Of a DNA stretch of 34,764 nucleotides, positions 11,809 through 31,773 are shown in pieces; the first letter of the stretch is position 1, and the number at the start of each line of letters is the position of its first letter. Origin of the DNA: a virus; IMG/VR virus record IMGVR_UViG_3300022934_000077, positions 1 through 34,764 of that record; one strand, 5' to 3'. The position numbers and the translations under genes are program-made. The notes beneath the pieces were generated by a model. It did no database searches and was not told the origin of the DNA. It was given only the letters and a program-made list of their open reading frames with translations.

Positions 11809-11836
11809 GACCTCCACTGCGGTGGGGGTCTTTTTT
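11809..11836 (+). terminator. Intrinsic terminator of the replication operon
   Basis: GACCTCCAC and GTGGGGGTC pair over 9 bp (one G-U) with loop TGCG, followed by TTTTTT. The T-run overlaps the TAA stop of the convergent 2418-aa gene. On the - strand no T-run follows the hairpin, so it acts in one direction as far as can be seen. The 70-base gap before it also holds a short AACGAC/GTCGTT hairpin (11777-11792). Confidence 0.85.
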
Positions 11837-14800
11837 ATTCGGACAAGTCAGAGAACCAATCGAATAACTGTAACCCTTTGTCGTACTCTCGTAAGCTGTC
11901 AAGCATGTTAGGTGTATACTCAATACCGCCAACCATTTTTGCGGTACGTTGGTCAAACGCACGGCGCGATCTTTCTAAGGTTTTAGGTGTGATTGTACGT
12001 TTATCTGGGGCGAACCCTACCGCACGTGCCAATTCGACGTTGAACCTGTTTATCTCTGCGCTTACATCCAACATACCACGGATATCTCCCTCAACCGCTG
12101 CCATGTTATACTTACGCAGTAGTTTGCGCCGTTTGTTATCAACGTGCTGCTTCTTACGCGTCTCGTTACGGTTGTATTCTAGTTGATAGATGTAATCTGC
12201 AGGGGCAAAACCCAACGCCTGAGACACAAGGTTACCGCCAGTTAAGTCCATGGTTACCGCGTCACCTCTACGAGTTTTGGCTCCGCCTTCCGCGTAGTAA
12301 CGTGTTGCACGTAGAGCGTTACGTACTGACGCAGGCATCGCAGCTTCTGAACCGCGCCACCATTCACCTTCTGCCCATAATTTTCTACCTCGCTCTATTG
12401 ACTGCGCCACACCGATTGCAGGGCCACCGAGTTGTTCAGCGAGTGTCCACAACCACCACTGATCTTTTTCTATGATTGGCGGTCTATAGAGTAGGCTGTT
12501 CATGGCGATACGGCTAGATATGTCCACGCCAAGCACGTCATTTAACATGCCGTTGTACCAACCTTCGCCCCAGAATTTACGCATACGTGCGTCAAAGTCA
12601 TCTTCATCGTCAGCTATGACTGCATCGTATATCATACCGATAGCACCCATCATCGGCATACCTGCGATACCTGACATGAGGCCAGTAGCAATCATGAACC
12701 TAGCAAACTGATGCTGCGCTATGATCCGTTGTTCTTTTTCTTCTGCAGTCTTAGCAGTCTTGACCGCATCATTAAACATGCGAGACATCATGTAGTATTT
12801 ACTGACCGCAAATCGCTTAAAGAGGAACGCCACGTTGCCTATGCCAGACTGTGCTGCAATCGGCCTACCTGCAGCGGCGGTAGAACCAAGAGTAACATCG
12901 ACTTCATCAATGACTTCGAAAGCTATTTTTCTGTACTCATCGGGTGTTAACTGCACACTGTCCAATGCCTCTGAAGTTGGCCCCTCTTTGGCGTTCGGGT
13001 TGTCCTTCTTAAACTTGGCTCGTTTCACGCGGTCTACTTCTAATAAGAAGTGTGCTCCCATGGTGGCCTCACGACCCAAACGTTCCGAGTGATGAAAGAA
13101 GAAACTAGACACACGGTTTAGCGTGTTTAATGCCCGGTCCACTTTGTTCTGCGCACCGTCTAATATATCAAGCTGATCTTGCGTGATTGTGTGGTTAAAC
13201 TTCGCATACTCTGTTGCTATTTCGGCAAAGTATTTAAGATATTTAGGCACTCCATCTGGGAGTTCACCATCAAAGTCGTAGTTTCCTATAGAGAACCCGA
13301 CTGGACCTGTTTTCACCGTGCCTTTTTCTTTACCGTTTGGTCCGTAGGTAACAACAGTGCGTTCTTTGGGAGCCTTGGCTAGTATCGCCATAGCCTTTCC
13401 GTAGTAGAAGTTCGTTTTAACATCGCCGTATTTACCCATCAGGCGAGGCATGGCACTACCCATGACGTCAAAGAATGTAAGAGCCGCCGACGACACGTTT
13501 GCACCCATAGTCCACATGTACAACCCTGCGTTCATAGCGCGTGATATCGGGTGAATGCGTGGGCTTTGTGCAAACGAGGCCATCTGATTTAGCTTCGTCT
13601 TCATCTCTAACGTGGTCGTGTCAATATTTTTATCTTGGTAATTTGTGTTGAGGTCAGACTTAAACTTCTGCAACTCCGCGCCGTATTTCAACTGCACTAT
13701 CTGGCGGTTGAAGTCTTGTGCTTTTGTTTGCACCATATCAACCAAATCGAAATTTTCTTGTGACATACCTGTAGGTGTAACATCTCCTAAGAAACCACGT
13801 ATGTCTTTACGGGACCGATACTGCTGTAGGAATGACCGCTGTGGTACGTTATCCAAGATCAACTCGACCACTGCATCTTTAGTGCGTTGGTCAGCCTTTG
13901 TTTTTACAAGCACCTCCATAAGTTCTTTTGTGAACGAACCGCTTGGTGCTTTGTCAAAGTTAAGTGTTTCTCCTCTAAGCCCCTCTATTGGGCGGCTGCT
14001 CTCCAAAGTACGCCGTTGCGCTTTAGATACCTCGTCAGTCTTACCTTCTAGCTTTTTCAACTGTTCTGCGTTGTATTCTGCTAGGTTCTTAATAGCTTTC
14101 TGCCGAGCGCGTTCGGTCTTGTAGTATTCTACAAAATACTCTGGCTTGCCTGTCTTTGGGTCTAATGTGTTATACTCAAGACGATACGAACCTTCACGTG
14201 TCAACGGAGCGAACGGCTTGATAGTGCCACGCTCCATGTTCAACAATTCTGCTAACTTCTTAACAGCAGCTTTACGAGTTGCTGCGTCCGGTGAAGTAAG
14301 TTCGAGGCTTGCGTCCACTGACGAAAGAACCTCGCTGCTACCTGCTTCAAATAAGTTTGTAAGTGTGCTGTAAAGTGCCTTACCTTCTGCTCCCATGGAC
14401 ATATACTTTTTACGTAAGTCTTTATATATACGCTGTTGTTCTGCAGGGTCTTCATCTTTGCGCATTGTGTGCGCAGCCTTAAACGTATCGGCTCTGGGGT
14501 CAGTTCGTTCGTAAGACGCGTTCGGTATCAAATATGCAAGCGTGTCGAAATCTTTACGCTTATCTCTCTTCAGTGCGTTTAACTTATTTAGCACAGGCTG
14601 CACGCCAAAGTTACGCTCACGAATTTCTTCTGTCATGCGGTCAATGATACGAGGCAGTTCAATCGACTGCGGTATGCGCTCACGTGACACCTGACCTAAT
14701 ATGTTAGCAGGTTGAAGGCTGAGATATAGGCGCTTTGCAGCGCGAGGTATGACATTATCGTTTAAGAACGAACGTGCACGATCATAGTAGTTTTTATCTA

Positions 14801-17800
14801 CTTTTATCGGATCGGCAACCGAATCATTTAGGGCAGTTTCGGCACTGTTGGGGTTGTCCACTGCCATACGTAGTTTAGCCGCTGCACGGTTTTCTAGTGA
14901 TGGTGCAAGCGCGTCTCTGACGAGCATATCTACTTCTGTCAACACCGAATTTGCTTTGCGTGGGGGCATTCCTAGCTTGCTGCGCAAGAAGTTTATTACC
15001 GCATCGACAAAACGTTCCATAACTTTCTGACGCTTCACACTGACGCTATCTAACATCGCACGGAACATAGGGTTCGCTTGCGCTTCAGACACAAACTCGT
15101 CAAGAGAGTTCGCACCATACATGCCTTCGATGTGTGGTTTGGTGTCGTTGTATATCTGGTTTAAACGCTTGCGGAGTAGACTGTTAGGTTTAGCCAGCTC
15201 AGCCGAAGTTGTTGCATGTAACATCTCATGTATAAGAGCATGAGCGTTCATACCTCGTGTCTCGTCCAACGTAATTGTGTTGGTTGCAGGGTCGAACTCA
15301 CCTGCTAGGGGAGTGCCATCTTCGGACTTCAAGTCTTTCGACGTAACAAGTTTTGTGTTGCCTACTAACGTAGCCAGCGCCCGGGCCACGTCTTGTGCCA
15401 CCCTGTTAGGTGCCATAGCGCCATAGTTTAACAAGGCCCCTTTTAAATCACCTTCTTTTATTGCGGCTATTACGTCACCCCGAACAGGCATTCCAAGAGC
15501 CGCATCTGCCGTCAAAACAAATTTACCAGACGGTGCCGCGCCCTTGACGACACCAGTTACTGCGTCAATTTTGCCTTTTTCAATATCTTTCTGCCTTTGA
15601 GCAGCAGTCCGCTCCGCTGCAATACGGTCAAGTATTTTCTTTTGAGCCTCTTTTGACAGTGGAGAATCTTTGCCTGTTGCCCATAAAATAATTTTTGTCG
15701 CGGCTGATTTGCCCATTGCAGGTAGGTTTTTACCTGATCCGTAATACTCGTCGTTGATCGGGTCAGGTTCGTTTTTGTTTCGTCTGTAGTCAGGTGTGCT
15801 GTGCGCATAATCATATATCGCAAACTCAAGTGCGTTAGCAGGGTTACGCATTTGCCCAAAGTATTTATGAAACGCCCCAACAATATCACCTTTTACTTTT
15901 TTGGGTTTCTTGTTGAGGAAAGAAAAGAATTTTTGTTTGTCCGATGCAGACAGGAAGTCTTCTGCAGGTTGGTCGTTTAACTCTTTATCCTTACGTTTTA
16001 CAACTTCGCCTTGCGTTTCGTCGAACCTACTTGCAAATTTCTTGTCTTCTTCCTTTGTTGCAGCAGTGCGCTCTTTCTCTATTGTTTCTTTTGTTTTAGC
16101 CTTGCGTGCATCTGTAGACGCTAGTGTAGGCCGCGCTTCTGTTTCAGGTTTTTTTGGTTGTTGTCCTTCTAACGGCGCAAGTTGTGGGTCAGGTACAAAT
16201 GTAGGTTTGCCTTTTGCAATCAGTGTTGCTTTATCTACAGGCACCCTAGTGCCACCAATTTGCTGTCGAATACGTGGGCGGTCTGGACCTTGAAACTGTA
16301 GCGTTCGTCTTGATGGCTCGTTAATAGCTTCAAGACTAGCGGCCTCTCGCTCCGTAATCTCTAACGGTTTATCTTTTTGTTTTTTAGGTTTTGTTTTTAT
16401 AGCAGGACGTGGTTTTGCATTTTGAATTATATTTTGTGGAGAAACCGCGCTGTCTACTTCTTCTGCACCATTATAGTATCGTACTTCTGCTTTGATGCTA
16501 GGTATGCCAAATTCTTTTGCTACTGCGGCCCTATTATTCCCTTCTGCAATAAATGCTTCACCTTTATGATTAACGTCTATAAATACGGTGCTGCCTTTTT
16601 GGTCTGGATCAAAACCTTCTTTTTCTACTGACTTTTTTATATTTTTATATTTAGCGTTAGATGGGCCTACTACCTCATCATTTACACCTTTAAGGTTAGC
16701 AACAAAATTTGTATCTAAAAACAAAGGTTTTTCAGGGTCTGTACCAATAAAACCTGTTTGCGGACCGTCAACTAATTTTTTGGCGCTAGGAGGAGCACCT
16801 TTTTTCTTCGCCCTGTCTTCTGCGGCTTTTTGTTTTTTCTGTGCATATTCTTGAGAAGGTAGGCTTTGTCGATAACCATAATCATCTAATGCACTTGGCT
16901 CTGTTCCTGTTGCCATTGGAGATACATCAGCATCTCGCACACTCGTTCCCAGTCCCTCTGCGTCAGATGATTTAGATATTTCGGCACTTTGATCTGTACG
17001 AACTCCTCTTCGTTGTCCGAGTCCCATGCCTGCTGTACTATCTGAAACGCCTTCTCCAGTTCGTGCGTCTTGAAGTCGTCTGGTTCCATCTTGGGCCTCC
17101 TGTTCTGGCAGTAGGTTTACACCTCTTGGCGCGACTTGTTGTTCCAATTCTAATTGGTCGCGGCTCTTAGGTGTATCAGGCTCATATGTAGGACGGCTTT
17201 GTTTTATCTGTGCTACACGCTCCTTGACTGCTAATTTCTCATTACGCGTTAGTTGTGTGCGTTTGATACCCGCATCAGACAAGGCTTTACGCACAGCGTT
17301 TTCGGTGTTTATGCGACTACTTCTATCAGACTTTGCCAGTACATCATCAACTATAGCCTTACGTCGATCTGCGGCTTCACGAAACGGCGCTTCTGTCGCG
17401 GCTTTTAATCTTGGTGCTACGCGTTCTTCGGCTTCAGCTTCAGTACGTGTCGTAAGGTCAGCTTCTTGTGCAACGGCTTTACCACGACGTACTGCGGCAC
17501 TTGCTTCACGCGCTTCGTCCTGACGTATTAAGTCAACGAGGTCACCTGTAGCCGCCGGGGGTTCCGTTTGTACTGTTTCTGCTTCTTCAAGGAACAAGTC
17601 ATCCATAAACTGATCGGGACGTCTAAGTTCCTCGGGTCCTAACCTACGGCGCTCTTGCTCTACTTCCCGTGCAAACAAGTCAGGTTGTGCTGCTCTAGCT
17701 GCGGCCTCGTCAAATGCACGTTCATCACCACGTTTACCTGCAGCAAGCGCTTGTTGTTCAGCGCGTTGGGCTTCACGTTCTCTAGCGGCAGCTTGTACAG

Positions 17801-19091
17801 CTTGTTCGTTGCGTGCGATGTCAGATTCTGCTGCACTGCGCCCTGCTAGGGCATCGGCAACGGCTGTACTCATGCGAGAAGGTGGCCTATCGGACGGTGC
17901 AGTAAGCTCATCTAACTCTTGCTCCATTTCGCCACGTGCACGATCTGCCATTGCTGCACCGCGCTTTTCCATTTCTTCGGAAACTACACGCTCTAGTTCA
18001 GGTAGTGGTATCTGTGTCTGCGCAACAATGTCTTGCATGTCGCTGAGTTCAACGTCGCCTTTCTCGTCTAGTGCTTGTGCAATACGCTCACGTGCTTGTG
18101 ACGCACGTTGATCGGGAATTAACCCTGCAATACCTTCTGGTGCGGGTAGAGCCTGTTGTTCTGGCTCTTTTGGCGTAACTTCTGGCCTACGTCCTTTAGT
18201 AAACGCATCAACCAACAACTGGATTGTAGCACCTGCACCGCCGCCAAGTGCTCCTGCTTCTCCTGCGCCTTCTAATATAGCCTGTTCTGCGTTGTACCCA
18301 CGTTCGTTAAGGTTCTGTAGTATGTTAGCTGCAGCTTCTTGTGCGGCCTCTTCACCACCTGTTTTAGCCGCTCGTTTAACTCTGTCTCCAATAGTTTCAA
18401 CTACTTCATCACCAAGGTCATTAGATAGACGACGTAGGATGCGGCCTAGTGGTAATGCTTCGGTAGAGCCAATCAGTGCACCAAACCGTGTAGCTCTGTT
18501 GCGTTCTTCCTGTGTGGCACCTGCAGCGCGTGCACGTTCACTAGCTTCACCTGCTCCAACACCGATACCAAGCAACCCTGCTATACCTGTACCAAGTAGT
18601 GCGGGTGCCCCTGCATATACAGCAAGCGCAGCGGGTGCCGCAAACCCTGCGATAGAACCAAATGTCTGTCCAATCTTGTAGCTAAGATCGTCTTTGTCCC
18701 CACCTTCAGGTTTTATGGCGTCTGCTATCGTTTGGATTTTATCACGTGCGGCTACTTCAGCCTCTTCATCCAATAATGTAGCTGCACCTGTAGCTGCTAA
18801 CTCACCAGTTTCAATAAAACCTGCGCCAAACCCTTTCCTAAGATCACCGAACACACCTGTTTCTTCTGGAATTGCAGCCGCAGCTTCCATACGTCGTTGG
18901 AACTCTTCTTGGGCTAGGCGTCTTTCTTCTTCTTGACGTGCAAGCGCGTCCCTACGGTTCTGCACCATAGGAGATACACGGCTTTCCATTTGCTCGTTTG
19001 CAAGGCGGAACAACTCATTTCTAGTTATACCCGCTGGTGCCTCTACAGTTAGCTGTGTCCCGTCAACGAGGTCCAGTGTGTATGTAGCCAT
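11835..19091 (-). CDS. Giant polyvalent virion protein (2418 aa) with ParB/Srx-like, zincin and LPD38-like regions
   Basis: This is the largest gene and the last of the virion operon. Visible order: a small beta domain (1-45); a Gly/Ala-rich hydrophobic stretch (about 134-184) that could insert in membranes; long charged Ala/Arg/Glu helices (about 290-760); a ParB/sulfiredoxin-like domain (about 790-885) with FIDVN, E850-G-N-N-R854 and AVAKEFGIP; a zincin-like segment with H1288-E-M-L-H1292 and downstream Glu1332/Glu1336; and a C-terminal region (about 1960-2300, HHSERLGREATMGAHFLLE) resembling LPD38. This is the polyvalent-protein plan: enzymes packed in the virion and ejected into the host. 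Ejection is inferred. The start ATG has GAGGGG 7-12 bases upstream. The part coding for ParB/Srx is AT-rich compared with its flanks. Confidence 0.85.
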   Translation of the reverse strand: MATYTLDLVDGTQLTVEAPAGITRNELFRLANEQMESRVSPMVQNRRDALARQEEERRLAQEEFQRRMEAAAAIPEETGVFGDLRKGFGAGFIETGELAATGAATLLDEEAEVAARDKIQTIADAIKPEGGDKDDLSYKIGQTFGSIAGFAAPAALAVYAGAPALLGTGIAGLLGIGVGAGEASERARAAGATQEERNRATRFGALIGSTEALPLGRILRRLSNDLGDEVVETIGDRVKRAAKTGGEEAAQEAAANILQNLNERGYNAEQAILEGAGEAGALGGGAGATIQLLVDAFTKGRRPEVTPKEPEQQALPAPEGIAGLIPDQRASQARERIAQALDEKGDVELSDMQDIVAQTQIPLPELERVVSEEMEKRGAAMADRARGEMEQELDELTAPSDRPPSRMSTAVADALAGRSAAESDIARNEQAVQAAAREREAQRAEQQALAAGKRGDERAFDEAAARAAQPDLFAREVEQERRRLGPEELRRPDQFMDDLFLEEAETVQTEPPAATGDLVDLIRQDEAREASAAVRRGKAVAQEADLTTRTEAEAEERVAPRLKAATEAPFREAADRRKAIVDDVLAKSDRSSRINTENAVRKALSDAGIKRTQLTRNEKLAVKERVAQIKQSRPTYEPDTPKSRDQLELEQQVAPRGVNLLPEQEAQDGTRRLQDARTGEGVSDSTAGMGLGQRRGVRTDQSAEISKSSDAEGLGTSVRDADVSPMATGTEPSALDDYGYRQSLPSQEYAQKKQKAAEDRAKKKGAPPSAKKLVDGPQTGFIGTDPEKPLFLDTNFVANLKGVNDEVVGPSNAKYKNIKKSVEKEGFDPDQKGSTVFIDVNHKGEAFIAEGNNRAAVAKEFGIPSIKAEVRYYNGAEEVDSAVSPQNIIQNAKPRPAIKTKPKKQKDKPLEITEREAASLEAINEPSRRTLQFQGPDRPRIRQQIGGTRVPVDKATLIAKGKPTFVPDPQLAPLEGQQPKKPETEARPTLASTDARKAKTKETIEKERTAATKEEDKKFASRFDETQGEVVKRKDKELNDQPAEDFLSASDKQKFFSFLNKKPKKVKGDIVGAFHKYFGQMRNPANALEFAIYDYAHSTPDYRRNKNEPDPINDEYYGSGKNLPAMGKSAATKIILWATGKDSPLSKEAQKKILDRIAAERTAAQRQKDIEKGKIDAVTGVVKGAAPSGKFVLTADAALGMPVRGDVIAAIKEGDLKGALLNYGAMAPNRVAQDVARALATLVGNTKLVTSKDLKSEDGTPLAGEFDPATNTITLDETRGMNAHALIHEMLHATTSAELAKPNSLLRKRLNQIYNDTKPHIEGMYGANSLDEFVSEAQANPMFRAMLDSVSVKRQKVMERFVDAVINFLRSKLGMPPRKANSVLTEVDMLVRDALAPSLENRAAAKLRMAVDNPNSAETALNDSVADPIKVDKNYYDRARSFLNDNVIPRAAKRLYLSLQPANILGQVSRERIPQSIELPRIIDRMTEEIRERNFGVQPVLNKLNALKRDKRKDFDTLAYLIPNASYERTDPRADTFKAAHTMRKDEDPAEQQRIYKDLRKKYMSMGAEGKALYSTLTNLFEAGSSEVLSSVDASLELTSPDAATRKAAVKKLAELLNMERGTIKPFAPLTREGSYRLEYNTLDPKTGKPEYFVEYYKTERARQKAIKNLAEYNAEQLKKLEGKTDEVSKAQRRTLESSRPIEGLRGETLNFDKAPSGSFTKELMEVLVKTKADQRTKDAVVELILDNVPQRSFLQQYRSRKDIRGFLGDVTPTGMSQENFDLVDMVQTKAQDFNRQIVQLKYGAELQKFKSDLNTNYQDKNIDTTTLEMKTKLNQMASFAQSPRIHPISRAMNAGLYMWTMGANVSSAALTFFDVMGSAMPRLMGKYGDVKTNFYYGKAMAILAKAPKERTVVTYGPNGKEKGTVKTGPVGFSIGNYDFDGELPDGVPKYLKYFAEIATEYAKFNHTITQDQLDILDGAQNKVDRALNTLNRVSSFFFHHSERLGREATMGAHFLLEVDRVKRAKFKKDNPNAKEGPTSEALDSVQLTPDEYRKIAFEVIDEVDVTLGSTAAAGRPIAAQSGIGNVAFLFKRFAVSKYYMMSRMFNDAVKTAKTAEEKEQRIIAQHQFARFMIATGLMSGIAGMPMMGAIGMIYDAVIADDEDDFDARMRKFWGEGWYNGMLNDVLGVDISSRIAMNSLLYRPPIIEKDQWWLWTLAEQLGGPAIGVAQSIERGRKLWAEGEWWRGSEAAMPASVRNALRATRYYAEGGAKTRRGDAVTMDLTGGNLVSQALGFAPADYIYQLEYNRNETRKKQHVDNKRRKLLRKYNMAAVEGDIRGMLDVSAEINRFNVELARAVGFAPDKRTITPKTLERSRRAFDQRTAKMVGGIEYTPNMLDSLREYDKGLQLFDWFSDLSE
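16437..16724 (-). other. ParB/sulfiredoxin-like domain within the giant protein
   Basis: Residues about 790-885 carry the ParB/Srx core: KPLFLDTNF near the start, VFIDVNHKGEAFIAEGNNRA, then AKEFGIPSIKAEVRYYNGAE. In this fold the G-x-x-R box binds nucleotide or acts in catalysis. No parS-binding HTH domain follows it, so it is not a complete chromosomal-type ParB. Boundaries are approximate. Confidence 0.65.
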
Positions 19092-21979: not shown

Positions 21980-22729
21980 TCACGCGGGTAGAAGTTTCAT
22001 AGGGTCTATCTCTTTACCCTGTTCATCATTGCCTGTGCGTTCTTTACGCACGCGGGCTAAAAACCTATCTAAGACTTTTGCGCCCGCTTCTGAATTTCCG
22101 TTACCTAGATGACTTACTACATCGGCAGGTATCACGTACTCTCCGTCGCTCAGTCGAGCTTCTTGCACACCGTCTATATTGGCACGAACTTTGTCAGCCA
22201 TACCATCAGTCTCACCGTTTAAATAACGACCTTTGGCTAGTTCGGTAATGCCACCTGCTGCATATTTTTGTTCGAAGTTCGCTAACCCACTTTGTGGGGC
22301 ATCTGCGGGTAAGTCTTCAATAACCCGTGAAGCTGCGCGTTTTTCTTGTTCTTCACCTTCGTCACGTGTTGGAAAAACTATAGGAGCGGGACGTTTTTCT
22401 GTATAAGGATTTGCAGCATTAAGTGCGGCTAACCCTGCTATTTGTTCTTCTGTTGCGGCACGAGCGGTCTCTATGCCTTCTGGCTTTGCATATGTTGTAT
22501 CAGAGAAGTACCGACGACCCCCACTCCCGGGTCTACGATCTGGGTCATACGCTATTTCAACAGGAGAACGCACTGCGGTGTAGTCTGGTATGCCACCTTG
22601 GTATCCTGTTTGCGGTATGTAGTTACTGTTAGCATCTCCACTGTTAAGTAGTAAGCTACCACCAACAGAAAGCACGCCTTTACCAGCGTCACTTTTTACA
22701 AAATCAAGCATTTTGCTCCAAATACTCAT
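21980..22729 (-). CDS. Putative virion protein with AAGGI motif (249 aa)
   Basis: The 249-aa protein has an N-terminal short hydrophobic helix (GVLSVGGSLLLNSG), a Pro/Gly/Tyr-rich middle (DPDRRPGSGGRRYFSD), and a C-terminal domain beginning KYAAGGITELAKGRYLNG and continuing VQEARLSDGEYVIPADVVSH, then a basic helix. The segment LSDGEYVIPADVVSHLG, following a GG-containing stretch, is familiar from phage internal and tail-associated proteins. It overlaps the 1942-aa gene by ATGA, indicating translational coupling. The function is structural by context only. Confidence 0.6.
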   Translation of the reverse strand: MSIWSKMLDFVKSDAGKGVLSVGGSLLLNSGDANSNYIPQTGYQGGIPDYTAVRSPVEIAYDPDRRPGSGGRRYFSDTTYAKPEGIETARAATEEQIAGLAALNAANPYTEKRPAPIVFPTRDEGEEQEKRAASRVIEDLPADAPQSGLANFEQKYAAGGITELAKGRYLNGETDGMADKVRANIDGVQEARLSDGEYVIPADVVSHLGNGNSEAGAKVLDRFLARVRKERTGNDEQGKEIDPMKLLPA

Positions 22730-25700
22730 TCTACATCTCCAAGCAAGCGTAGTAGTTCATCTGTTTCATCTACTGCACCGCCTTCAGAAAATCCAGCGGC
22801 TCTTCCCATAACTCCCATTGGGTTCATCCCTGCAAGTCCCGCGCCTAGAGGGACATTAGTATTGGCAGGTTGTGCGCGAGTGCCCCCATACGGGCTTGCA
22901 AATAACGAAGCCTGCGATGGATTGGCGAATATACTGTTAAAATCGTACAAATAATTTATCCTCATGGGGTCAGGTGTTCTTACGCTAACACGCTGTCCAC
23001 CTAAATCTTCAGCACCCATCAACATTTCTGTAAGGTCCGCTAGATTACGACGCTTCGTCTCAGTGTTTATTTGAGTGTTCAAGTCTGTTATAAGATCGGT
23101 TACCGTGTCGGTTTGCGCATCTATGTCAGATTGAACATCAGCTATCGTGCCATACAACCCAGTGGCAGGGCCAAACGTCGATGTGTCCGCAAAGGTAACG
23201 TCTTCACCTTGTAATGCAGAAGTTAACAGATTTTGGTCGTTTATGTCAACGATACCATCTCCTGTAACATCATACTGCGCCGTTTGTAACTCGTCGAGCA
23301 CCTGATTTTGCGCTATAACGTCTGCTACAAAGTCAATATCGACCTGTGTTACCTCTTGTGCGGGCTTTCCTATGATAGAAGATATGGCGTCAATATCTGC
23401 TCCTAAAGTCTCTTCGACTCCAGTAATCTGCCCACCAAGCTCGGTAATCTGTCCACCAAGCCCAGTAACCTCTCCTTTAACTGCCTCAACGTCTTCTGCT
23501 ACCGCATCTATTTCATCTCCTAGACGCTCTTCTGTAAGCCCAAGTTGGCGTAACACTTCTGTTTCAGACAAACCAAGATCGGTAGCAAGTTGGTCAATAG
23601 CTGACTGCAGTGCTTCATCACGTGTCGCACCCGCTTCAAATTCGGCATAGATGCCTGTAGCGTCTTTGGACTCATCTTCAGGTGTGTTCGGATTGTCTTC
23701 AACTGCAGGAGAACCTAGCACTTTACCAATTACGTTAAACGTTGCGGTTGGCATGTACGTTTCCAACTGTTCACGTTGGTACGTCTCAAACCCTTCGCCA
23801 GTATAGTCTTCAGACTCAGGATCAGCCTGTGCTACAAACCGATCTACGTCTTCTTGTGTTACGTCTACAAGGCCAAGCTCCTCGTAGGCTGCGCGGACCT
23901 CACTCGCATCAAACATTCGTGGGTCTACGTATTCATCAATCGCAACCTTTTGCGCAACTTGATAGTTTTCGTCGTTAACTTGCCCAACAAAACTTGTTAT
24001 TTCGTCTTGTGTCGGTTGATAACCAATAGCCGTCAGGAACTCTTCAGCTTCTTCAGCCGTGACTTGCCGTGGGTCTACATAAGAACCAATCGCGCTTGTC
24101 TGTGTCTCTTCAGTCTTGGATGCAACAAACTGAGCAATCTCTTCTGGGGTTGCGGTATAACCCGTATTTGCAAAAAACTGCGTGGCTTCTTCTAGGGTAG
24201 TAGCTAACGGATCGTATTCTGAACGTGCTTCTGATAGTTTCTCTTCTGCATAATTTTCTGCTACGCCTTGACTTACGTATGTAGCAGCAAGGGCATCTGT
24301 TAAAGTAAGTCCCTCTTCGTCAGCAATAACTTGCAACTCTTCGCGGGTCACCTGACGAGGGTCTACATATTGTGCTATGAGATCGGCTTGAGTTGTTTCT
24401 GAAACTTGCGCAACAAACTCTTCTACCTGCTCATCTGTTGGTTCGTACCCAAGATTCGTAAAGAATTCACGGGCTTCTTCAGAAGTAACCTGACGTGGGT
24501 CTACATAAGTTTCTACGCGATCAGGTGCAGTGGCTTCAAAATCAGCACCGCCTTGACCTACATAAGAGTTAATTTCATCTTGTGTGGGTTCGTAACCTTG
24601 GTCGGCAAAGAATTGACGTGCCTCTTCTTCAGTGACCTGACGTGGGTCTACATAGGCAGGTATCTCTCCAAGCGTATCGGTTTCGCTACCTTCTCGTACA
24701 AATTCGTTTATCTGCGCATCAGTAGGGTTAAATCCTAGCTCAGCAAACTTAGCACGGGCTTCCTCGGCGGTAGTAAACTGCGGATCATACTCCTCACGTA
24801 TTTCTTCAACCGCGCCAGACTCTTCTTTTTGCCCTACATACGCCTCTGCCTGTTCATCTGTTAGGGTTACACCTTCGGCAGCGGCAGCGGCTTTAACCTC
24901 TTCAGCATCTAAATATCGTGGGTCTATGTAAGCTGCGACTGAAGCCGCCACATCAGATTCTGGGTTGTTGGATACAAACGATTCTATTTCTGCATCTGTT
25001 GGCTCAAACTCAGGGTTTGCATCCTTAAATAGTTTGGCTGCTTCATTCGTGCTAACGTACATAGTATCGTACGTAGAATTAAGAACATTATTTAATATCG
25101 TTGTATCAGTAATACCTAAGTTGTTAAGTGCTGTAGTTGCAGCTTCTGCGCTTCCTGCGTTTTTAACAGTATCAACAACATCAGAATTTAATGTCATCAA
25201 CGCGTCAGCTACAGCGTTACCCGAGTATATGGTTGAAGCCGTACCAACACCAGCAATAGACCCCAGATAACCAGCCTCAAACACCGAACCCGCTACATCA
25301 TAACTAGGGTCAATCTGCGAGTTTACAGTTGCTGAGTACAACTGCGGCAATACCTCTTCTACAAACTCCGTTGATCCTTCTTTAAGTGTAACTTTTGTAC
25401 CATCAAGTATTTTAGTACCAAGTTGTTTAAAGGCAGTGTCTGCAAACTCACTGGCGTTGTCACCAAGAATATTTTTAGCTAATGCTTGACCGCCAACACC
25501 CGCAGTGACTGCTGTAGTAAACAAAGCAATCGTCCCTGCTTTTTGCGCTGTATCTAATGCAAGCTCCGTAGCTTCTTCTTCAGTAAATTTTCTTGAACCA
25601 TCTTCGTTTGTAGCAGCAATAGCATTTGCGTAGGTTTCATCGAAAGTGCTTGCAGCCGTACCGCCAAACGCTTCTGCGGCATCTAGTGTAAGTGCGGTGC

Positions 25701-28554
25701 CTAAAGCAGCGCGTGTACCTATTTTCTTCGCGTAAGCCTCACCACCTTGCAACAGGGCTGCTTTTGCAACATTACCTACGCCACCAGACGCTATAAAAAT
25801 AGGTACTTCTTGCAAAATTTCGCTTGCTACATTTTCTGCAAGGAACTGCACGGGGTGTTCTGTTAGGTTACCCCAAATAGCCTGCGCTTTTAACCAGCCT
25901 TTTTGCGCAACGGTTGGCTCTTCGCCGGGATTGTTTTCTCGCCACTCTTTGTCGTAATCCTGTGACCGCCTTTGCATATCCTCTGCACCTGCAACCCACG
26001 CGTCGGAACGTAAATCACCACTTAACGCTAACAAACTTTTAGCAGTCTGCCCTACAGAATTGTCTGGATTTGCGCCAACTAAAGTAGCCAGTCCAGATAT
26101 GGCCTGCAGCATCTCCCCACCTGCGTTAGTGACTACACTTGCAGCATTACTAAAGGCTTCTTGTTGGTCTTCAGGGGTTTCGTCTAAATACACTTGTTTT
26201 AGTTTGTTGTAGACTTGCCAAAGTTTACCGCCTGTAGCCTCATCAAACGCCGCGCCGTCTGCATCACTCAACCCTGCAATCGTAGACACTACAACTCCAG
26301 ACGCAGGAGGTAGATTTTTTACGGAAATAGAACCGTCTGCAGAATACGCGGTCATTCCATCATCGCTAAGATACGAAAATCCCGGAGGTATTTTTCTAAA
26401 TTCTAGTGGTTCGTACAGCGCATTAAACGCAATATCTACTACATCAAGATTTGAGCCTGCATAGTTAACTACACTGCTTAAATTTGTTTCGCCAAGTGTT
26501 GCTTGTTTTGTAGATGGTAGCTCCCATGATAGCTGTCCATTGGTGTTAACTAACACCGCGTTGCCATTTACAAGGGTGTTTACATCTACTCCTGCGCCTA
26601 AAGACACAGTATCTAGTGTAGGTTCAGGCGGGTTGTTAGTAAAATCGTCTACCGCTGCGTTTACCGCAGATAGGCTAGCGTGGTCAAAGGCCATATCACT
26701 AGAAGCACCACTATCAGGACGGTTATAGAATCCATCGCCTACATTAACTATATTGTTAGTAGAATATCCATTGGCACTTAGTAACGATTTTACCTCGTCA
26801 CCTGTCATACCTGTGGTATCAACAAAAATATTAGACCCGTCAGCATTTGTAGCGTCAAGTTTAATGTACTCACCTGCTAAAAACACATTATAGTCATCAG
26901 TAGACTGCGGTATAAAACCTGCGTCTTTTAACGCTGTTGTTAGTTCAGGAGTTAGTGCAGCATCTGCAACCATAGTGTTAGCAAATTTGTCTAAGTCTAA
27001 TCCTGTAATACTTCTAATATTTTTTATTTCTTTGTCTGCATAAGCAAGATACTTTGCTAACTGCTCTGGTGCTAACGAATCAAGAGTTATACCTTTTGCT
27101 TCTAACGCACTTTCTACAGTAGATAGGCGAATAGCGTCTAACGTAGCATCAGCTTCAGACTTACTTGCTGGACCTTGCTGCCCGTTAATAAGAAAATGTT
27201 GTGCTACGTTCTCAACTGACTCACCTATAAACTCAGAATAGGCTTCTTCATCAAAATTTGGACGTAACGTAAGCGCAACCGCCATATCTGCAGCAGACAT
27301 AACAGGCTTTAGCTCGTCTGCTAAATCTTCGGACTTAGTAACCATCCAATCTTTAGCATCGTTGTATTCTGCTTCTAAATCAGGGACTTTATCGTTCCAA
27401 AAGTTAAAATTACTTTCGGCTGTTTCTATCTGTTCTTTATAGTTGTCGTTATAGTCTGCCTCAAGTGCAAGTGCATATTCGTTAAATGCTCCCGCTGCAG
27501 CGTTAACATCGTTTGCATTGGCCTCTGTTTGATTGGCATTATATCTATCTAATGCAAGGTCGTATGCTGTTTTTAGACGGTCTTGCTCTTGTATCTTGCC
27601 ATTCAGTTCGCCAACCAAGGTATTATACTGGTCAGCGTAAGTACCTGCTTTTGTTGTTGCTTCGTTTAGTGCATTTGCAGCGGTTTCGGTACTGCCATAA
27701 GCACCGCTAAGACTGTCAATAGCATTGTTAACAGGGCGATCAACAATATCTTTTAGGGCATCTGCCCCTGCACTACTTAGCGCATTAAAAAATTGATCTC
27801 CTGACAAGTCAGGGTTACCAGCAAGAGCCGTAGCAACACTATTTGTAACTGCAGTAGTAATTACGTTAGCAGCAGTTTCAGACAACCCTGCATTATCTTC
27901 TAAGAAGGTGGTCATAAAGTCACCAACCCCAGAATATGTTTTAACTAAATCACCTACTGTATTTGCAGAAATACTTTCGTCATTTAAGGCAGCGGATACG
28001 CCCGCGATAATACTATCTTTTGCGCCGTCTTGTAGGTTCTCAAACTGACCTTCCATCATATCGTCAATTTGACCTAGCGTAGCACCAAGTGCGCCTTGTA
28101 TGCCCCCAGTAGCAAACGCTTGTAACGGGTCTTGTCCGTACACTAACGCAGTGGTTGCTGATTTAGCGCCTCCTGTAATACCTGCAGATAATACCTGACC
28201 GCCAAAACTATCACCAACATAATCACCGACGATGTTGCTAGTATACTTACCAGCAACTGCACCAACTTTACCCCCCGCATAAGAAATAGCAGCAGCTTTA
28301 AGTGCATCACCAAGATCACCGCCTTTAGCTAGAGTAGCCGCGCCGTCTACAAGAGGAATTGCCCACGCATACGCCCCACCAGAAACAACAGTGAGGCCGA
28401 TCTTAGCTATGGCCTCAATAGGGTTATCTAAGACGTAATCAATTACATCGTTAACACCACTGACAACAGGCTGCACGATTTCGTCAACAACCCAGTCAAC
28501 AACATCGTTAACTAGGTCAAATACGTCTTCTACAAGGTCAACTATAACACCCAT
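22726..28554 (-). CDS. Giant virion protein (1942 aa) with nine tandem repeats and a dockerin-like loop
   Basis: Visible order: an acidic amphipathic N-terminus (VDLVEDVFDLVNDVVDWVVD); Gly/Ala-rich hydrophobic stretches (about 45-160); coiled coil (about 300-400); a long mixed region to about 1000; further Ala/Gly-rich segments (about 1000-1140); nine repeats of about 49 aa (about 1161-1599, consensus YVDPRQVT-x-EEA-x2-FF...GYEPT-x2-EI-x2-FV-x-Q); a short coiled coil with GGQIT heptads; an EF-hand/dockerin-type loop D1762-V-T-G-D-G-I-V-D-I-N-D1773; and a C-terminal INYLYDFNSIFA motif that I recall from marine phage proteins. It is probably an internal or ejected virion protein. Tape measure is the alternative, but the composition and neighbours fit a short-tailed phage better. 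Confidence 0.7.
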   Translation of the reverse strand: MGVIVDLVEDVFDLVNDVVDWVVDEIVQPVVSGVNDVIDYVLDNPIEAIAKIGLTVVSGGAYAWAIPLVDGAATLAKGGDLGDALKAAAISYAGGKVGAVAGKYTSNIVGDYVGDSFGGQVLSAGITGGAKSATTALVYGQDPLQAFATGGIQGALGATLGQIDDMMEGQFENLQDGAKDSIIAGVSAALNDESISANTVGDLVKTYSGVGDFMTTFLEDNAGLSETAANVITTAVTNSVATALAGNPDLSGDQFFNALSSAGADALKDIVDRPVNNAIDSLSGAYGSTETAANALNEATTKAGTYADQYNTLVGELNGKIQEQDRLKTAYDLALDRYNANQTEANANDVNAAAGAFNEYALALEADYNDNYKEQIETAESNFNFWNDKVPDLEAEYNDAKDWMVTKSEDLADELKPVMSAADMAVALTLRPNFDEEAYSEFIGESVENVAQHFLINGQQGPASKSEADATLDAIRLSTVESALEAKGITLDSLAPEQLAKYLAYADKEIKNIRSITGLDLDKFANTMVADAALTPELTTALKDAGFIPQSTDDYNVFLAGEYIKLDATNADGSNIFVDTTGMTGDEVKSLLSANGYSTNNIVNVGDGFYNRPDSGASSDMAFDHASLSAVNAAVDDFTNNPPEPTLDTVSLGAGVDVNTLVNGNAVLVNTNGQLSWELPSTKQATLGETNLSSVVNYAGSNLDVVDIAFNALYEPLEFRKIPPGFSYLSDDGMTAYSADGSISVKNLPPASGVVVSTIAGLSDADGAAFDEATGGKLWQVYNKLKQVYLDETPEDQQEAFSNAASVVTNAGGEMLQAISGLATLVGANPDNSVGQTAKSLLALSGDLRSDAWVAGAEDMQRRSQDYDKEWRENNPGEEPTVAQKGWLKAQAIWGNLTEHPVQFLAENVASEILQEVPIFIASGGVGNVAKAALLQGGEAYAKKIGTRAALGTALTLDAAEAFGGTAASTFDETYANAIAATNEDGSRKFTEEEATELALDTAQKAGTIALFTTAVTAGVGGQALAKNILGDNASEFADTAFKQLGTKILDGTKVTLKEGSTEFVEEVLPQLYSATVNSQIDPSYDVAGSVFEAGYLGSIAGVGTASTIYSGNAVADALMTLNSDVVDTVKNAGSAEAATTALNNLGITDTTILNNVLNSTYDTMYVSTNEAAKLFKDANPEFEPTDAEIESFVSNNPESDVAASVAAYIDPRYLDAEEVKAAAAAEGVTLTDEQAEAYVGQKEESGAVEEIREEYDPQFTTAEEARAKFAELGFNPTDAQINEFVREGSETDTLGEIPAYVDPRQVTEEEARQFFADQGYEPTQDEINSYVGQGGADFEATAPDRVETYVDPRQVTSEEAREFFTNLGYEPTDEQVEEFVAQVSETTQADLIAQYVDPRQVTREELQVIADEEGLTLTDALAATYVSQGVAENYAEEKLSEARSEYDPLATTLEEATQFFANTGYTATPEEIAQFVASKTEETQTSAIGSYVDPRQVTAEEAEEFLTAIGYQPTQDEITSFVGQVNDENYQVAQKVAIDEYVDPRMFDASEVRAAYEELGLVDVTQEDVDRFVAQADPESEDYTGEGFETYQREQLETYMPTATFNVIGKVLGSPAVEDNPNTPEDESKDATGIYAEFEAGATRDEALQSAIDQLATDLGLSETEVLRQLGLTEERLGDEIDAVAEDVEAVKGEVTGLGGQITELGGQITGVEETLGADIDAISSIIGKPAQEVTQVDIDFVADVIAQNQVLDELQTAQYDVTGDGIVDINDQNLLTSALQGEDVTFADTSTFGPATGLYGTIADVQSDIDAQTDTVTDLITDLNTQINTETKRRNLADLTEMLMGAEDLGGQRVSVRTPDPMRINYLYDFNSIFANPSQASLFASPYGGTRAQPANTNVPLGAGLAGMNPMGVMGRAAGFSEGGAVDETDELLRLLGDVE
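23236..23271 (-). other. EF-hand/dockerin-type calcium loop
   Basis: The twelve residues DVTGDGIVDIND have Asp at loop positions 1, 5, 9 and 12 and Thr at 3, as in type I dockerin calcium loops, followed by the hydrophobic helix QNLLTSAL. Only one copy is seen, while dockerins carry two. Calcium binding is inferred. Confidence 0.6.
23422..23463 (-). repeat. 21-bp direct duplication (GGQIT heptads)
   Basis: Two adjacent 21-base units around GTAATCTG-CCACCAAGC encode two heptads, GGQITEL and GGQITGV, of a short coiled coil after the main repeat array. They differ by a few bases, consistent with in-frame slippage. Confidence 0.6.
23758..25073 (-). repeat. Nine tandem ~49-aa protein repeats
   Basis: Units begin YDTMYVS, YIDPRYL, YDPQFTT, YVDPRQVT (two in a row plus a third degenerate unit), YDPLATT, YVDPRQVT and YVDPRMF. 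Each has a helix (EEA-x2-FF), a G-Y/F-x-PT turn and a second helix (EI-x-x-FV-x-Q). Unit length varies from 45 to about 58 aa. The DNA has diverged between units, so this is an old repeat under protein-level selection. It is not a CRISPR array. Confidence 0.85.
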
Positions 28555-28557
28555 GCT

Positions 28558-29016
28558 CTAACCCTGCATCTCGTTTTGTCCTAATATTTCAAACCCAACC
28601 GCTGTTTTACCTCGTTTTTTAGCGGTTCTAATACGTACACCCAACTCATTCTGTCTGCGCTCTAATACCTTAAATACAGGATCGTATACATTACCGTCGT
28701 ATTGAGTAGCGTAGCCATCTATACCTTTACGTCTAAGGTGCGTTATGTATCTAGTAACGTTGTTTAAAAAATTTCGGCCTGTGTCCATGTTGAACGCACG
28801 TCCCACCATTTTGTTTTTGTTATCGCCTTTTCCTCTGTGCCCGATAAATACTGTGTTACCAATCTGCTCTACATCCACATCTGGCATACTCATTTCTTTT
28901 GCAATGCCCATCAATGCCGCTTGTTGAGGTATGTCTCCCGTACCAATCTGCTCCATAGCACCAAAAATAACATTGTAAGAAGGTAGAGGTGTTTCTTTGC
29001 TATTAACAGCTTGCAT
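28558..29016 (-). CDS. Conserved 152-aa virion-cluster protein
   Basis: This is a 152-aa basic protein of unknown activity. The core reads NTVFIGHRGKGDNKNKMVGR, AFNMDTGRNFLNNVTRYITHL, then a GIDGYATQYDG strand and a basic C-terminal hairpin. The order of strand, basic loop, helix and strand recalls a small acetyltransferase-like (GNAT) fold, and proteins of this pattern sit near internal core genes in other marine phages; both points are from memory and uncertain. A T7 gp13-like assembly role is one possibility. The start overlaps the acyl carrier protein stop (TGATG), and only 3 bases separate its end from the 1942-aa gene, so the three are probably co-translated. Confidence 0.6.
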   Translation of the reverse strand: MQAVNSKETPLPSYNVIFGAMEQIGTGDIPQQAALMGIAKEMSMPDVDVEQIGNTVFIGHRGKGDNKNKMVGRAFNMDTGRNFLNNVTRYITHLRRKGIDGYATQYDGNVYDPVFKVLERRQNELGVRIRTAKKRGKTAVGFEILGQNEMQG

Positions 29017-29297
29017 CAGACATGCTCCATCACATCACTTACAGACGCAGGTTCACAGGTTTTGTGAGCATCTACATAATCGCGCAGAGTGCCAAGCGTG
29101 TATTTTGATACATCATCAAACTCGGCAGTGTCTGGTATACCGTACGCATCGGTAATTACTGCTATTATCATTACCATATCTAAACTATCAAGTCCAACAT
29201 CTATTGGCTCATCGTAGTAGCTATTAGCGTCTCTTGCATCGTTGGGTCTAGTCACTGCATTGTTGGCTACAATGTTAAATACTTCGATAAACTCCAT
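29016..29297 (-). CDS. Acyl carrier protein
   Basis: This 93-aa small acidic protein has the acyl/peptidyl carrier signature PIDVGLDSLDMVMIIAVITD. Ser38 in D-S-L-D is where 4'-phosphopantetheine would be attached by the host ACP synthase, almost the same place as Ser36 of E. coli ACP. Helix II (DSLDMVMIIAVITDAYGI) and the acidic loop after it (DDVSKYTLGTLRDYVDAHK) also fit. The length is normal for a free ACP; no synthase or acyltransferase gene is nearby. It lies between a tail-surface gene and virion genes, with both junctions TGATG. Start: ATG at 29297; GTG one codon earlier is possible. Its role in the phage is unknown; binding host fatty-acid enzymes or acylating a virion protein are speculative. 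Confidence 0.85.
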   Translation of the reverse strand: MEFIEVFNIVANNAVTRPNDARDANSYYDEPIDVGLDSLDMVMIIAVITDAYGIPDTAEFDDVSKYTLGTLRDYVDAHKTCEPASVSDVMEHV

Positions 29298-29914
29298 CAC
29301 TCATTACTCACAAAAGTAATATCTATAGACGCTGATGGTAGGCCCGGATGAGGTGACGTAGCAGCCTCTGTATGCAAATTTAACTGAGTGTCGCCTGTAG
29401 CCCAGTATACTTCTATGTAGTCATTCGCTGCCAAAGATGCAGTAAACCCCCAATGAATAACGTAGTCGTCGTTACCTTTTACATCAAACTTATGCCCAGA
29501 ATAACTTATGGCTGTGCCATTTTTTTCTTCCCACACTGTTACAGGCGTTTCGCTAGAGTTATTGTGTTCTAACTGCAATGTAACATCAAAGCTATATATA
29601 CCTGCGTCTGCTACGTTTATGCGGCTGTTATTAGATAGAGTAACACCGCTAGTGTAGTTTGTATTGTTAAATGTAACCGCATACCCTGTATTTATCGCAG
29701 CAGCAGATTGATCTTGAGTGCTGTAAAAAGACCCACGTGGGGCATACAAAAACTTGCCACCGTTATCGGTACTAATCAACGTATCAAAAGCATTAACAAG
29801 TCTGTTAAAAAACAAACGTAACACATTGCTGTTCTGGTCCATATACGGACGGTCATACCCTTCGGGAGCAAGCGGTAATGCAGGCGCAGCGGGCCTGTCT
29901 AGCTCGTTAGTCAT
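29297..29914 (-). CDS. C1q-like tail surface protein
   Basis: This is a 205-aa probable tail-fibre or receptor-binding protein. Residues 1-50 (APEGYDRPYMDQNSNVLRLF then FNRLVNAFDTL) form the likely attachment part. Residues about 60-205 resemble a C1q/TNF-type jelly-roll domain: FYSTQDQSAAAINTGYAVTF, VADAGIYSFDVTLQLEHNN, SYSGHKFDVKGN and NDYIEVYWATGDTQLNLHTE. This domain is common at the tips of phage fibres and forms trimers. It starts by TAATG overlap with the gp10-like gene. Which host surface it recognises cannot be told. Confidence 0.75.
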   Translation of the reverse strand: MTNELDRPAAPALPLAPEGYDRPYMDQNSNVLRLFFNRLVNAFDTLISTDNGGKFLYAPRGSFYSTQDQSAAAINTGYAVTFNNTNYTSGVTLSNNSRINVADAGIYSFDVTLQLEHNNSSETPVTVWEEKNGTAISYSGHKFDVKGNDDYVIHWGFTASLAANDYIEVYWATGDTQLNLHTEAATSPHPGLPSASIDITFVSNE

Positions 29915-31773
29915 TACCGCCTCCCGTCTGGGCGCATATCAATGCGCGGCGTCCCAAGCTGCCATGTGACACCCTCGTTGGCGGACTCTACTTTTATCGC
30001 CATTTGTCTACCTCGTACCCGTGTGTAGACCTGTCCTGTGTACTGTTCGATAGGGATAGTCGCAGTACGTGTCACAGCGGCAGAATTCGAGCCGCCCTCT
30101 GAAGCGGGGGAGGAGTACCCTGATCCAGAATTGACGAGAGGAAGAAGTGTCATCGTTGCACTCGGGGACGCCGCGCTCGACCCATCAAACGTCATATCGG
30201 GAAGAATGCGCCAAACAAACGCAAACCTATGTCCGTCTTCAAGGTCGAATTCAGCCGAGGAAATATATGCGTGTATGGCTGCAGTGGTGCCTGTCTCATT
30301 GTCATCAGTACCGACTTCGTGGAACACCAAGTTATTGCTATACGTAGCAGCTAACGGATTGTCTTTAAGACCAGAGTCAAGCCATGCTGTGCGGCTCATA
30401 GACCCATGATACCAAATGTCTTCTAAATAATTATACACTACATAGCGGTCTGTCTGTGTCGCACTAGCAGAGCAATACCACCACCAAACTTCGTGGTATG
30501 CTTCATTCGTGCCTGCAACCACCTGCGAAAACTGTTGTCTGTTAAAGTCGTTAAATATGTAACGCCGTAGGTCGCAGCGGAGTGGTTGGGTTCTACCATC
30601 ATATTTGTAAAACTTGTCTTTCCCCATCCAGAAAGCCATACCAGACGCATAGGCTACGCAGTTTTGTGAAGCTATAGATACATTATCCCCAACAAGCTGT
30701 GCACCCCATACAATCGGCGCACCTTGGTACTGTAGTGAATACAGCGCAGAGTCAGTCCAGACTAGAACCTCTTGCCGAGCTTGCTTTGCCGTAATGATTT
30801 CGGTGCCGCTCGAAAGTCGAAGACTACCTGCTTGGTTGGTAGCTGCAGGGGTCCAGTTAACCACACTCTCTTGGTCAGACCACCGTATTAGCATGGGGTC
30901 CTGTGTAGCAGAACCTAACTCGTTACACCCAAAACAAAATACAAAACGACTTACGTCAGATATAAGCAAATAATTTTGTACTGTTGGTACGTTAGACGCA
31001 CCACCAAGACTTGAAACTAATACACCGCGAGTGGTTAATCCATTAGTAGCATCCCAGTAATATAAACCACCACCACGATGCCCAAACACCAAATCTTCAC
31101 CAAAATTAGATTGTGTCCACACGCGTAGTGCTTCAGTGGACGTCTCACCCACACCCCACGTACCTGTACCCCAAGAACCTGCGCCCCAACCAGTAAGCGG
31201 AATATTAAACGCGGGACCAATATTTACTTGATATGCGGCACTTACAGATGACCCTCCACCTGTTGTTGATGATGAAGCATTTGTACCAACGTCGATTGTG
31301 TATTTATTTGTATCAGAAATAGTAATTTGATATTCGCTGTTTAACGTAGCAGCATCAATACCACCTGTTGCAGTAGCACTGCTGAAAGTAACAAAATCTC
31401 CATCAGTATACCCACCTGCAGTGTCTGTAACTTCTACAATAGAAGAGCCGCTAGTGGTTTCAAATGGATTTGCGCCGAGTGTTACAGTGGCCCGCAACGG
31501 AGTGATGTCGTTATACCCACCACCGTTTTCAATATAAAACTTTAAGTTAGTGCCAAGCCCAACAAAGTTTTGACTGCCTAATGTTACCCAGTTATTAAGT
31601 GACCTACACACACCCAGAAAAGTGCTCGTTGAAATACGCTCCCACCCACCAATTTTTTCAGGAAACCCTTGGCGAAAACGCACTTTATCGCTGTCGTACC
31701 AACGCCCTTCTCCCGCATAGCGAGTTACTTCTTTATTTACACCAGCGGCAAATTGAATTTTCTGGAGCGTCAT
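29914..31773 (-). CDS. P22 gp10-like tail accessory/stabilisation protein
   Basis: The 619-aa beta-rich structural protein begins MTLQKIQFAAGVNKEVTRYA then GEGRWYDSDKVRFRQGFPEKIGGWER. This opening is common to phage proteins annotated as P22 gp10-like tail accessory factors, which close the head-tail channel. The rest is rich in Gly, Ser, Thr and Trp, with propeller-like blades (VLVWTDSALYSLQYQGAPIV, FYKYDGRTQPLRCDLRRYIF) and ends WQLGTPRIDMRPDGRR. Residues about 105-180 (GANPFETTSGSSIVEVTDTA) look like an inserted beta domain. The RBS is GAGGTTGATCT before the ATG. The family link is from memory of sequence patterns and fits the neighbouring tail gene. Confidence 0.75.
   Translation of the reverse strand: MTLQKIQFAAGVNKEVTRYAGEGRWYDSDKVRFRQGFPEKIGGWERISTSTFLGVCRSLNNWVTLGSQNFVGLGTNLKFYIENGGGYNDITPLRATVTLGANPFETTSGSSIVEVTDTAGGYTDGDFVTFSSATATGGIDAATLNSEYQITISDTNKYTIDVGTNASSSTTGGGSSVSAAYQVNIGPAFNIPLTGWGAGSWGTGTWGVGETSTEALRVWTQSNFGEDLVFGHRGGGLYYWDATNGLTTRGVLVSSLGGASNVPTVQNYLLISDVSRFVFCFGCNELGSATQDPMLIRWSDQESVVNWTPAATNQAGSLRLSSGTEIITAKQARQEVLVWTDSALYSLQYQGAPIVWGAQLVGDNVSIASQNCVAYASGMAFWMGKDKFYKYDGRTQPLRCDLRRYIFNDFNRQQFSQVVAGTNEAYHEVWWWYCSASATQTDRYVVYNYLEDIWYHGSMSRTAWLDSGLKDNPLAATYSNNLVFHEVGTDDNETGTTAAIHAYISSAEFDLEDGHRFAFVWRILPDMTFDGSSAASPSATMTLLPLVNSGSGYSSPASEGGSNSAAVTRTATIPIEQYTGQVYTRVRGRQMAIKVESANEGVTWQLGTPRIDMRPDGRR

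Follow-up and report, generated by a model that had tools for sequence, protein, structure and literature searches.

Phage ACP/fab genes are already known, and the usual view of them is as auxiliary metabolic genes acting on host fatty-acid synthesis. The acyl carrier proteins (ACPs) of the Erythrobacter phage R6L, the Alteromonas phage R22Y and the Vibrio phage R16F, as well as PHROG 5934, have been described in this manner. The protein considered here resembles the R6L, R22Y and R16F ACPs in being a small, free-standing phage ACP with a serine phosphopantetheine site. However, the ACPs of R6L and phiXF1, unlike ours, stand among replication or unassigned genes, and the reports consulted on phage ACPs as auxiliary metabolic genes describe no ketosynthase (KAS) partner, no GNAT neighbour and no conserved slot in a virion gene block. 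The closest PHROG of the ACP family studied here is the unnamed phrog_28189, and the family of the KAS that accompanies it in related phages is phrog_35856; both of these are without an assigned function.

Several other described systems bear on the genes that surround this ACP. The KAS of the related phages keeps the Cys, the two His and the Lys of the FabF-type beta-ketoacyl-ACP synthases (thiolase superfamily). However, it differs from FabF in its length of about 370 aa and in having a shortened and divergent N-terminal part, it scores 98.6 of 493.75 bits, far under the equivalog cut-offs, and the DNA analysed here lacks such a gene. The toxin-activating lysine acyltransferases HlyC and CdiC draw on acyl-ACP to lipidate proteins, and they rely on a His/Asp dyad (PMC8510554). 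Their likeness to the present case lies in the proposed logic, viz. a small transferase moving an acyl group from acyl-ACP to a large protein, but the phage GNAT-like protein has no invariant His (52 homologues) and no sequence match to them, and it is not a member of their family. With the LuxI-type autoinducer synthases the likeness is one of fold only. Lastly, according to one report, a podovirus group (Cobavirus pc40) carries a GNAT beside its internal virion proteins, which its authors compared with T7 gp13, itself suggested to be of GNAT type with a role in morphogenesis (PMC6775973). The resemblance here is that a GNAT-type gene adjoins internal virion protein genes; the difference is that the passages on these genes mention no ACP or KAS alongside. 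In the literature that was searched, which covers the field incompletely, no description was found of an ACP-KAS-GNAT arrangement in a virion block.

Results

Gene order around the ACP

The window, i.e. the whole stretch of viral DNA that was analysed (34,764 nucleotides), contains the following genes of interest.

29016..29297, minus strand: acyl carrier protein (ACP), 93 aa, with the phosphopantetheine site Ser38 in D37-S38-L39-D40 (ORF, profile, AlphaFold)
29297..29914, minus strand: 205-aa gene, earlier labelled C1q-like, a conserved neighbour of tentative identity (Pfam BclA_C, E 0.05)
29914..31773, minus strand: structural protein of the virion, of 'stabilization protein' type, marking the slot on its upstream side (phrog_3287, E 3.6e-67; tblastn to annotated stabilization proteins)
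28558..29016, minus strand: predicted GNAT-fold protein, 152 aa, encoded immediately after the ACP, the proposed acyltransferase partner (AlphaFold, Foldseek, VIA-align; ACP/KAS adjoining in relatives)
22726..28554, minus strand: 1942-aa gene downstream of the GNAT gene, a presumed internal virion/ejection protein (position; analogous order in MW202675)

The ACP gene overlaps each of its neighbours by one base, with TGATG at both ends (positions 29297 upstream and 29016 downstream), as the preliminary description of this DNA had indicated in proposing translational coupling on both sides. However, base 29914 is likewise common to two neighbouring genes of the operon and, as other operon genes lie just as close together, this coupling is not special to the ACP. 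The ACP had also been placed between a C1q-like gene and a virion gene; its position in the virion block holds, but the C1q label, in view of the BclA_C match given above, is tentative. In MW202675 an acetyltransferase gene is followed directly by 'internal virion protein D', which is an analogous order. The N-terminus of the 1942-aa protein is amphipathic and valine-rich. The small residue (S, G or A) at position two of the protein encoded after the GNAT gene was also considered; it fits with N-terminal modification but, being common in bacteria, it provides no evidence.

Identity of the ACP

The ACP reading frame starts with an ATG at 29297 and ends with the stop TGA at 29018-29016 of the minus strand, and in its product Ser38 lies in the context G35-L-D37-S38-L39-D40. 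When this protein was compared alone with the Pfam PP-binding model (PF00550), its score of 17.2 bits was under the cut-off of 20.8; the homologue from locus L005 is above it (22.8 bits), and 12 of 45 homologues gave a PP-binding match at E<=0.01. A profile of 46 homologues matched 86 PDB sequences at E<=0.01 (best E 1.8e-6), with mitochondrial complex I ACPs among them, and all of the best 60 of these 86 are acyl carrier proteins or complex I ACP subunits. The AlphaFold model (pLDDT 91.3, pTM 0.83) has helices at residues 3-14, 31-34, 38-51, 68-78 and 86-92; it shows the predicted four-helix carrier fold, with helix II beginning at Ser38. The VIA-align matches listed for this model are carrier proteins nearly throughout, the top one being the holo donor-ACP 5kp7 (Z 7.8, rmsd 2.7, 74 aligned). 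However, Z values in this range can reflect a mere helical-bundle arrangement and due to this the identification is based chiefly on the profile of homologues and on the invariance of the motif. Residues D37, S38 and D40 are invariant across the 46 aligned homologues, every one of the 139 distinct homologues has the DS pair, and dN/dS values of about 0.02-0.3, obtained where dS was measurable, indicate purifying selection on the gene.

Based upon the profile of homologues, the invariant motif and the predicted fold, the product of 29016-29297 is a genuine ACP and the motif is no chance occurrence. The preliminary description had reported a free-standing ACP with an intact D-S-L-D site here, and had named a Ser38 not conserved in homologues, or a fold prediction other than ACP, as results that would speak against it; with the phosphopantetheine serine kept in 139/139 sequences and an ACP fold in the AlphaFold model, that identification stands. 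A single Phage_TAC_7 match (E 0.005) among 45 ACP members was discarded, and identity as a tail assembly chaperone is rejected because of the invariance of the DS pair in this family. No phosphopantetheinyl transferase gene (PF01648) was found in 32 phage records, and no ketoreductase-type gene in the phage records searched, and hence the host would have to activate, and mostly load, the carrier.

The GNAT-like partner

For the 152-aa protein encoded directly downstream, no sequence family match was found. Its AlphaFold model (51 sequences, pLDDT 93.6) has the helix/strand order of GNAT proteins, and in Foldseek it gave 18 matches at E<=0.001, those listed being GNAT N-acetyltransferases throughout. 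The VIA-align matches listed are likewise of this type, the best being the GNAT SACOL1063 (Z 11.3, rmsd 2.4, 115 aligned). A GNAT fold is thus strongly predicted for this protein. The canonical R/Q-x-x-G-x-G/A pyrophosphate loop is, however, absent from it (the strand4-helix3 region reads VGRAFNMDTGRNF), the invariant residues at this place being D78 and N82, and the family has no invariant His or Arg (His checked in 52 homologues). With the canonical loop missing and neither of these residues invariant, catalysis by this protein is not assured. Further, the GNAT-like gene occurs in about 20 loci that lack a phage ACP, and therefore it does not need one.

The annotated phages with related structural proteins carry 'acetyltransferase' genes in the same region, but a profile comparison of the GNAT-like family with these yielded nothing. 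Comparison with T7 gp13 by hhalign gave a probability of 0.2 (for a single T7 sequence) and detected no homology; T7 gp13 itself matches phrog_308, which is absent among the listed matches of the 152-aa protein of the window. The mean net charge of the GNAT-like protein is +4.2 where ACP and KAS are present, as against -0.6 and -2.9. However, on independent tree pairs, by which relatedness is allowed for, a tie of the basic charge to the presence of ACP/KAS is unsupported.

A conserved slot and a ketosynthase in related phages

Other viral contigs were found to share the gene order of the window, viz. the stabilization protein (phrog_3287), the 205-aa gene, the ACP, the 152-aa gene and a very large gene. 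In the public phage genome MW202545 a weak relative of the ACP (33% identity) occupies the same slot, and after it come a gene with the annotation 3-oxoacyl-ACP synthase and then a homologue of the 152-aa gene. Further searches yielded 72 ACP loci and 66 KAS loci, and for the 152-aa gene the best 80 loci were kept. Among the viral loci examined, the ACP was present in 194, the KAS in 170 and both of these in 169, although the locus counts are not independent, as some of the loci come from overlapping parts of a single contig; the distinct sequences number 139 for the ACP and 140 for the KAS. The sole locus with a KAS lacking an ACP (L098) begins only about 100 bases from the contig end. In most of the ACP loci the usual order is ACP, KAS, the predicted GNAT-fold protein and then the presumed internal-virion genes, and 120 of the 164 adjacent ACP and KAS pairs share a 4-base overlap. 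The survey of related phages that had been suggested earlier thus shows that the position of the ACP is conserved and not accidental. A scan of genome contigs gave matches in two MAG contigs (Balneolaceae and Hyphomicrobiales), both of which are apparently phage contigs.

The KAS of the relatives matches the Ketoacyl-synt_C and fabF models, and the equivalents of the FabF Cys-His-Lys-His residues (Cys129, His266, Lys294 and His299) are invariant in 126 distinct full-length sequences. No KAS match was obtained in the window, a linear record that may be incomplete, or in seven other ACP-only records, and three positive controls were matched; the lineage of the window has the ACP and the GNAT-like protein without a KAS. 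Loci L052, L057 and L070 were not accepted as further ACP-only cases, as they end at or just past the ACP and are contig-end fragments. The fabF matches from the ordinary phage collection (Listeria, Enterococcus and similar) were also set aside; these show 24-29% identity, come from unannotated records and look like host DNA.

In the relatives that lack an ACP (e.g. L160:4029-4364), a conserved beta-rich protein of 106-114 aa occupies the slot after a shortened C1q-type gene. These proteins were considered as divergent ACPs and rejected, as on reading they are without the DSL motif and resemble beta-rich tail proteins. In five loci (L073, L102, L106, L107 and L112) ACP-KAS pairs are found off the usual slot, with small genes next to them instead of the GNAT-like gene.

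Probable exchange of the cassette

In the structural-gene tree, well-supported branches force at least seven changes of the KAS state and eight of the ACP-only state; the ACP tree, from a short and poorly resolved alignment, needs one or two changes. In the loci L020 and L157, from a nearly identical phage pair, identity is 98% and 95% for the two upstream proteins and 88% for the first part of the downstream one, but it falls to 32% for the ACP and to 59% for the GNAT protein, and the KAS is present in only one of the two. Within the ACP gene their DNA is similar for only about the first 5 codons, and similarity returns in the GNAT gene around codon 42. These sequence comparisons support the view that the ACP, the KAS and the start of the GNAT gene were, in all probability, exchanged together in this pair. 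In addition, once structural-gene divergence is removed, ACP divergence correlates with the divergence of the main parts of the GNAT protein (partial r 0.44-0.69) and more weakly with that of the next gene (0.28-0.38). However, physical linkage alone could explain part of this co-divergence of the ACP and the GNAT protein.

A second phage lineage

In 15 viral loci and one MAG contig, which form a context unrelated to that of the window, the order is ACP-KAS, a gene for 110-132 aa and the portal gene. These loci include L225:4458-8243 and L237-L251; the ACP, the KAS and the small gene lie directly upstream of the portal, and in some of them a major head gene is found further on. The ACPs of this lineage are homologous to the ACP family of the window, and the ACP Ser and the KAS catalytic residues are kept in the sequences read. 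A profile comparison of the 116-aa gene of this lineage gave no tie to the GNAT-like family; the pattern of strands and helices leaves an impression, only, that its product may be GNAT-like.

A different ACP (annotated as 'putative acyl carrier protein') lies at positions 2542-2823 of L233 (MW202777.1), close upstream of the capsid gene, and overlaps a 250-aa partner. The ACP and a 228-aa protein of the Erythrobacter phage R6L form a similar pair.

Discussion

The GNAT fold encoded downstream of the ACP and the KAS of the relatives were both missed in the preliminary description, and they alter the meaning of the find. Of the three roles proposed there for the holo-ACP (packaging into the virion, use in assembly such as acylation of a virion or lysis protein, or late binding of host enzymes), assembly/acylation is best favoured by the comparative data, as the neighbours are a KAS, in relatives, and a GNAT-fold protein. 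We suggest, with a confidence that stops just short of even, that the ACP is part of an acyl-transfer cassette of the virion cluster, in which the holo-ACP would feed the GNAT-like protein and this, in turn, would modify a virion or ejection protein. This reading proceeds from a carrier of established identity with an invariant Ser38 in a conserved position, and from a KAS with intact catalytic residues in the relatives. Beyond the ACP itself, the fold predicted for the protein next to it and the linkage of the two, we infer each step, viz. the pantetheine loading, the use of acyl-ACP by the GNAT-like protein, the acceptor, the chemistry and its purpose. Late in infection, a host phosphopantetheinyl transferase would turn the phage ACP into holo-ACP, onto which host fatty-acid enzymes would load an acyl chain; in most of the related phages this chain may also be condensed or extended by their own KAS. 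From the phage acyl-ACP the GNAT-fold protein would then receive the acyl group, for transfer to an amino group of a virion protein. The most likely acceptor would be the protein of the internal/ejection block that is encoded next, and acylation might render it more membrane-active or competent for assembly. Acyl transfer to an amine is the best explanation for the occurrence together, before large virion genes, of an intact carrier, a KAS in most relatives and a GNAT-fold protein. However, the lack of a KAS in the window and several relatives counts against this reading, as does the fact that it is the portal which follows the small gene of the second lineage.

The cassette could also be metabolic, with a late ACP (and the KAS where present) boosting or diverting host fatty-acid synthesis or competing with it, and with late expression as the only reason for its location in the virion block. 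Phage ACP/fab genes have been read in this way in other phages (PMC11705849, PMC5463345, PMC8224337, PMC10653327), and both the intact catalytic residues of the KAS and the location of other phage ACPs among replication or unassigned genes are in accordance with it. However, the slot between a structural protein and the internal virion genes has been kept over deep divergence, the cassette has been exchanged along with the start of the GNAT gene, and the records searched yielded no ketoreductase-type gene, and we consider this explanation rather unlikely, albeit a serious one. Alternatively, a non-catalytic acyl-ACP, whether packaged or not, might bind the GNAT-fold protein and serve it structurally or as a chaperone during virion assembly. 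The mitochondrial ACPs of complex I work with LYR proteins, and such ACPs are among the profile matches; the window has the ACP and the GNAT-fold protein without a KAS, and the GNAT-like protein lacks the canonical loop, which also fit with a partnership of the ACP-LYR kind. Most of the relatives, however, retain a KAS with all of its catalytic residues, of which a purely structural role would have no need, and this makes the explanation improbable.

It would be less probable still, and in our view hardly to be expected, that the ACP, KAS and GNAT make a small molecule, i.e. an acyl amide (e.g. a 3-oxoacyl amino compound) that would serve as a signal or effector; LuxI-type and N-acyl amino acid synthases produce such amides from acyl-ACP. 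The fold matches obtained for the GNAT-like protein include the autoinducer synthase TofI (Z 9.7, rmsd 3.4, 130 aligned), and a KAS acting without a ketoreductase would give 3-oxoacyl-ACP. However, plain acetyltransferases outscore TofI, none of the 51 GNAT-like members gave an autoinducer-synthase Pfam match at E<=0.1, the family has few invariant residues, and the genes are located in the virion block.

Returning to acyl transfer onto a virion protein, the ACP and fabF genes described here form, with the GNAT-fold protein, a conserved and exchangeable unit in the virion gene block of many phages, which points to acylation during virion building. It is possible, though we hold it with considerable reserve, that a widespread group of aquatic phages has its own virion acyl-lipidation, in which the ACP, usually with a KAS, would give a dedicated chain to a GNAT-fold transferase acylating ejection or other virion proteins. 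If true, phage particles would carry a new post-translational modification, and the reason for the presence of a podoviral GNAT-type gene beside internal virion proteins would become directly testable.

Two observations concern the large genes of the window. The 1942-aa protein (22726-28554, minus strand), which gave no family over the cut-off, contains several degenerate repeats like YVDPRQVTxEEAxxFFxxxGYxPTxxEI. At 11835-19091 of the minus strand there is a single ORF of 2418 aa, which is very large for a 34.8-kb phage record.
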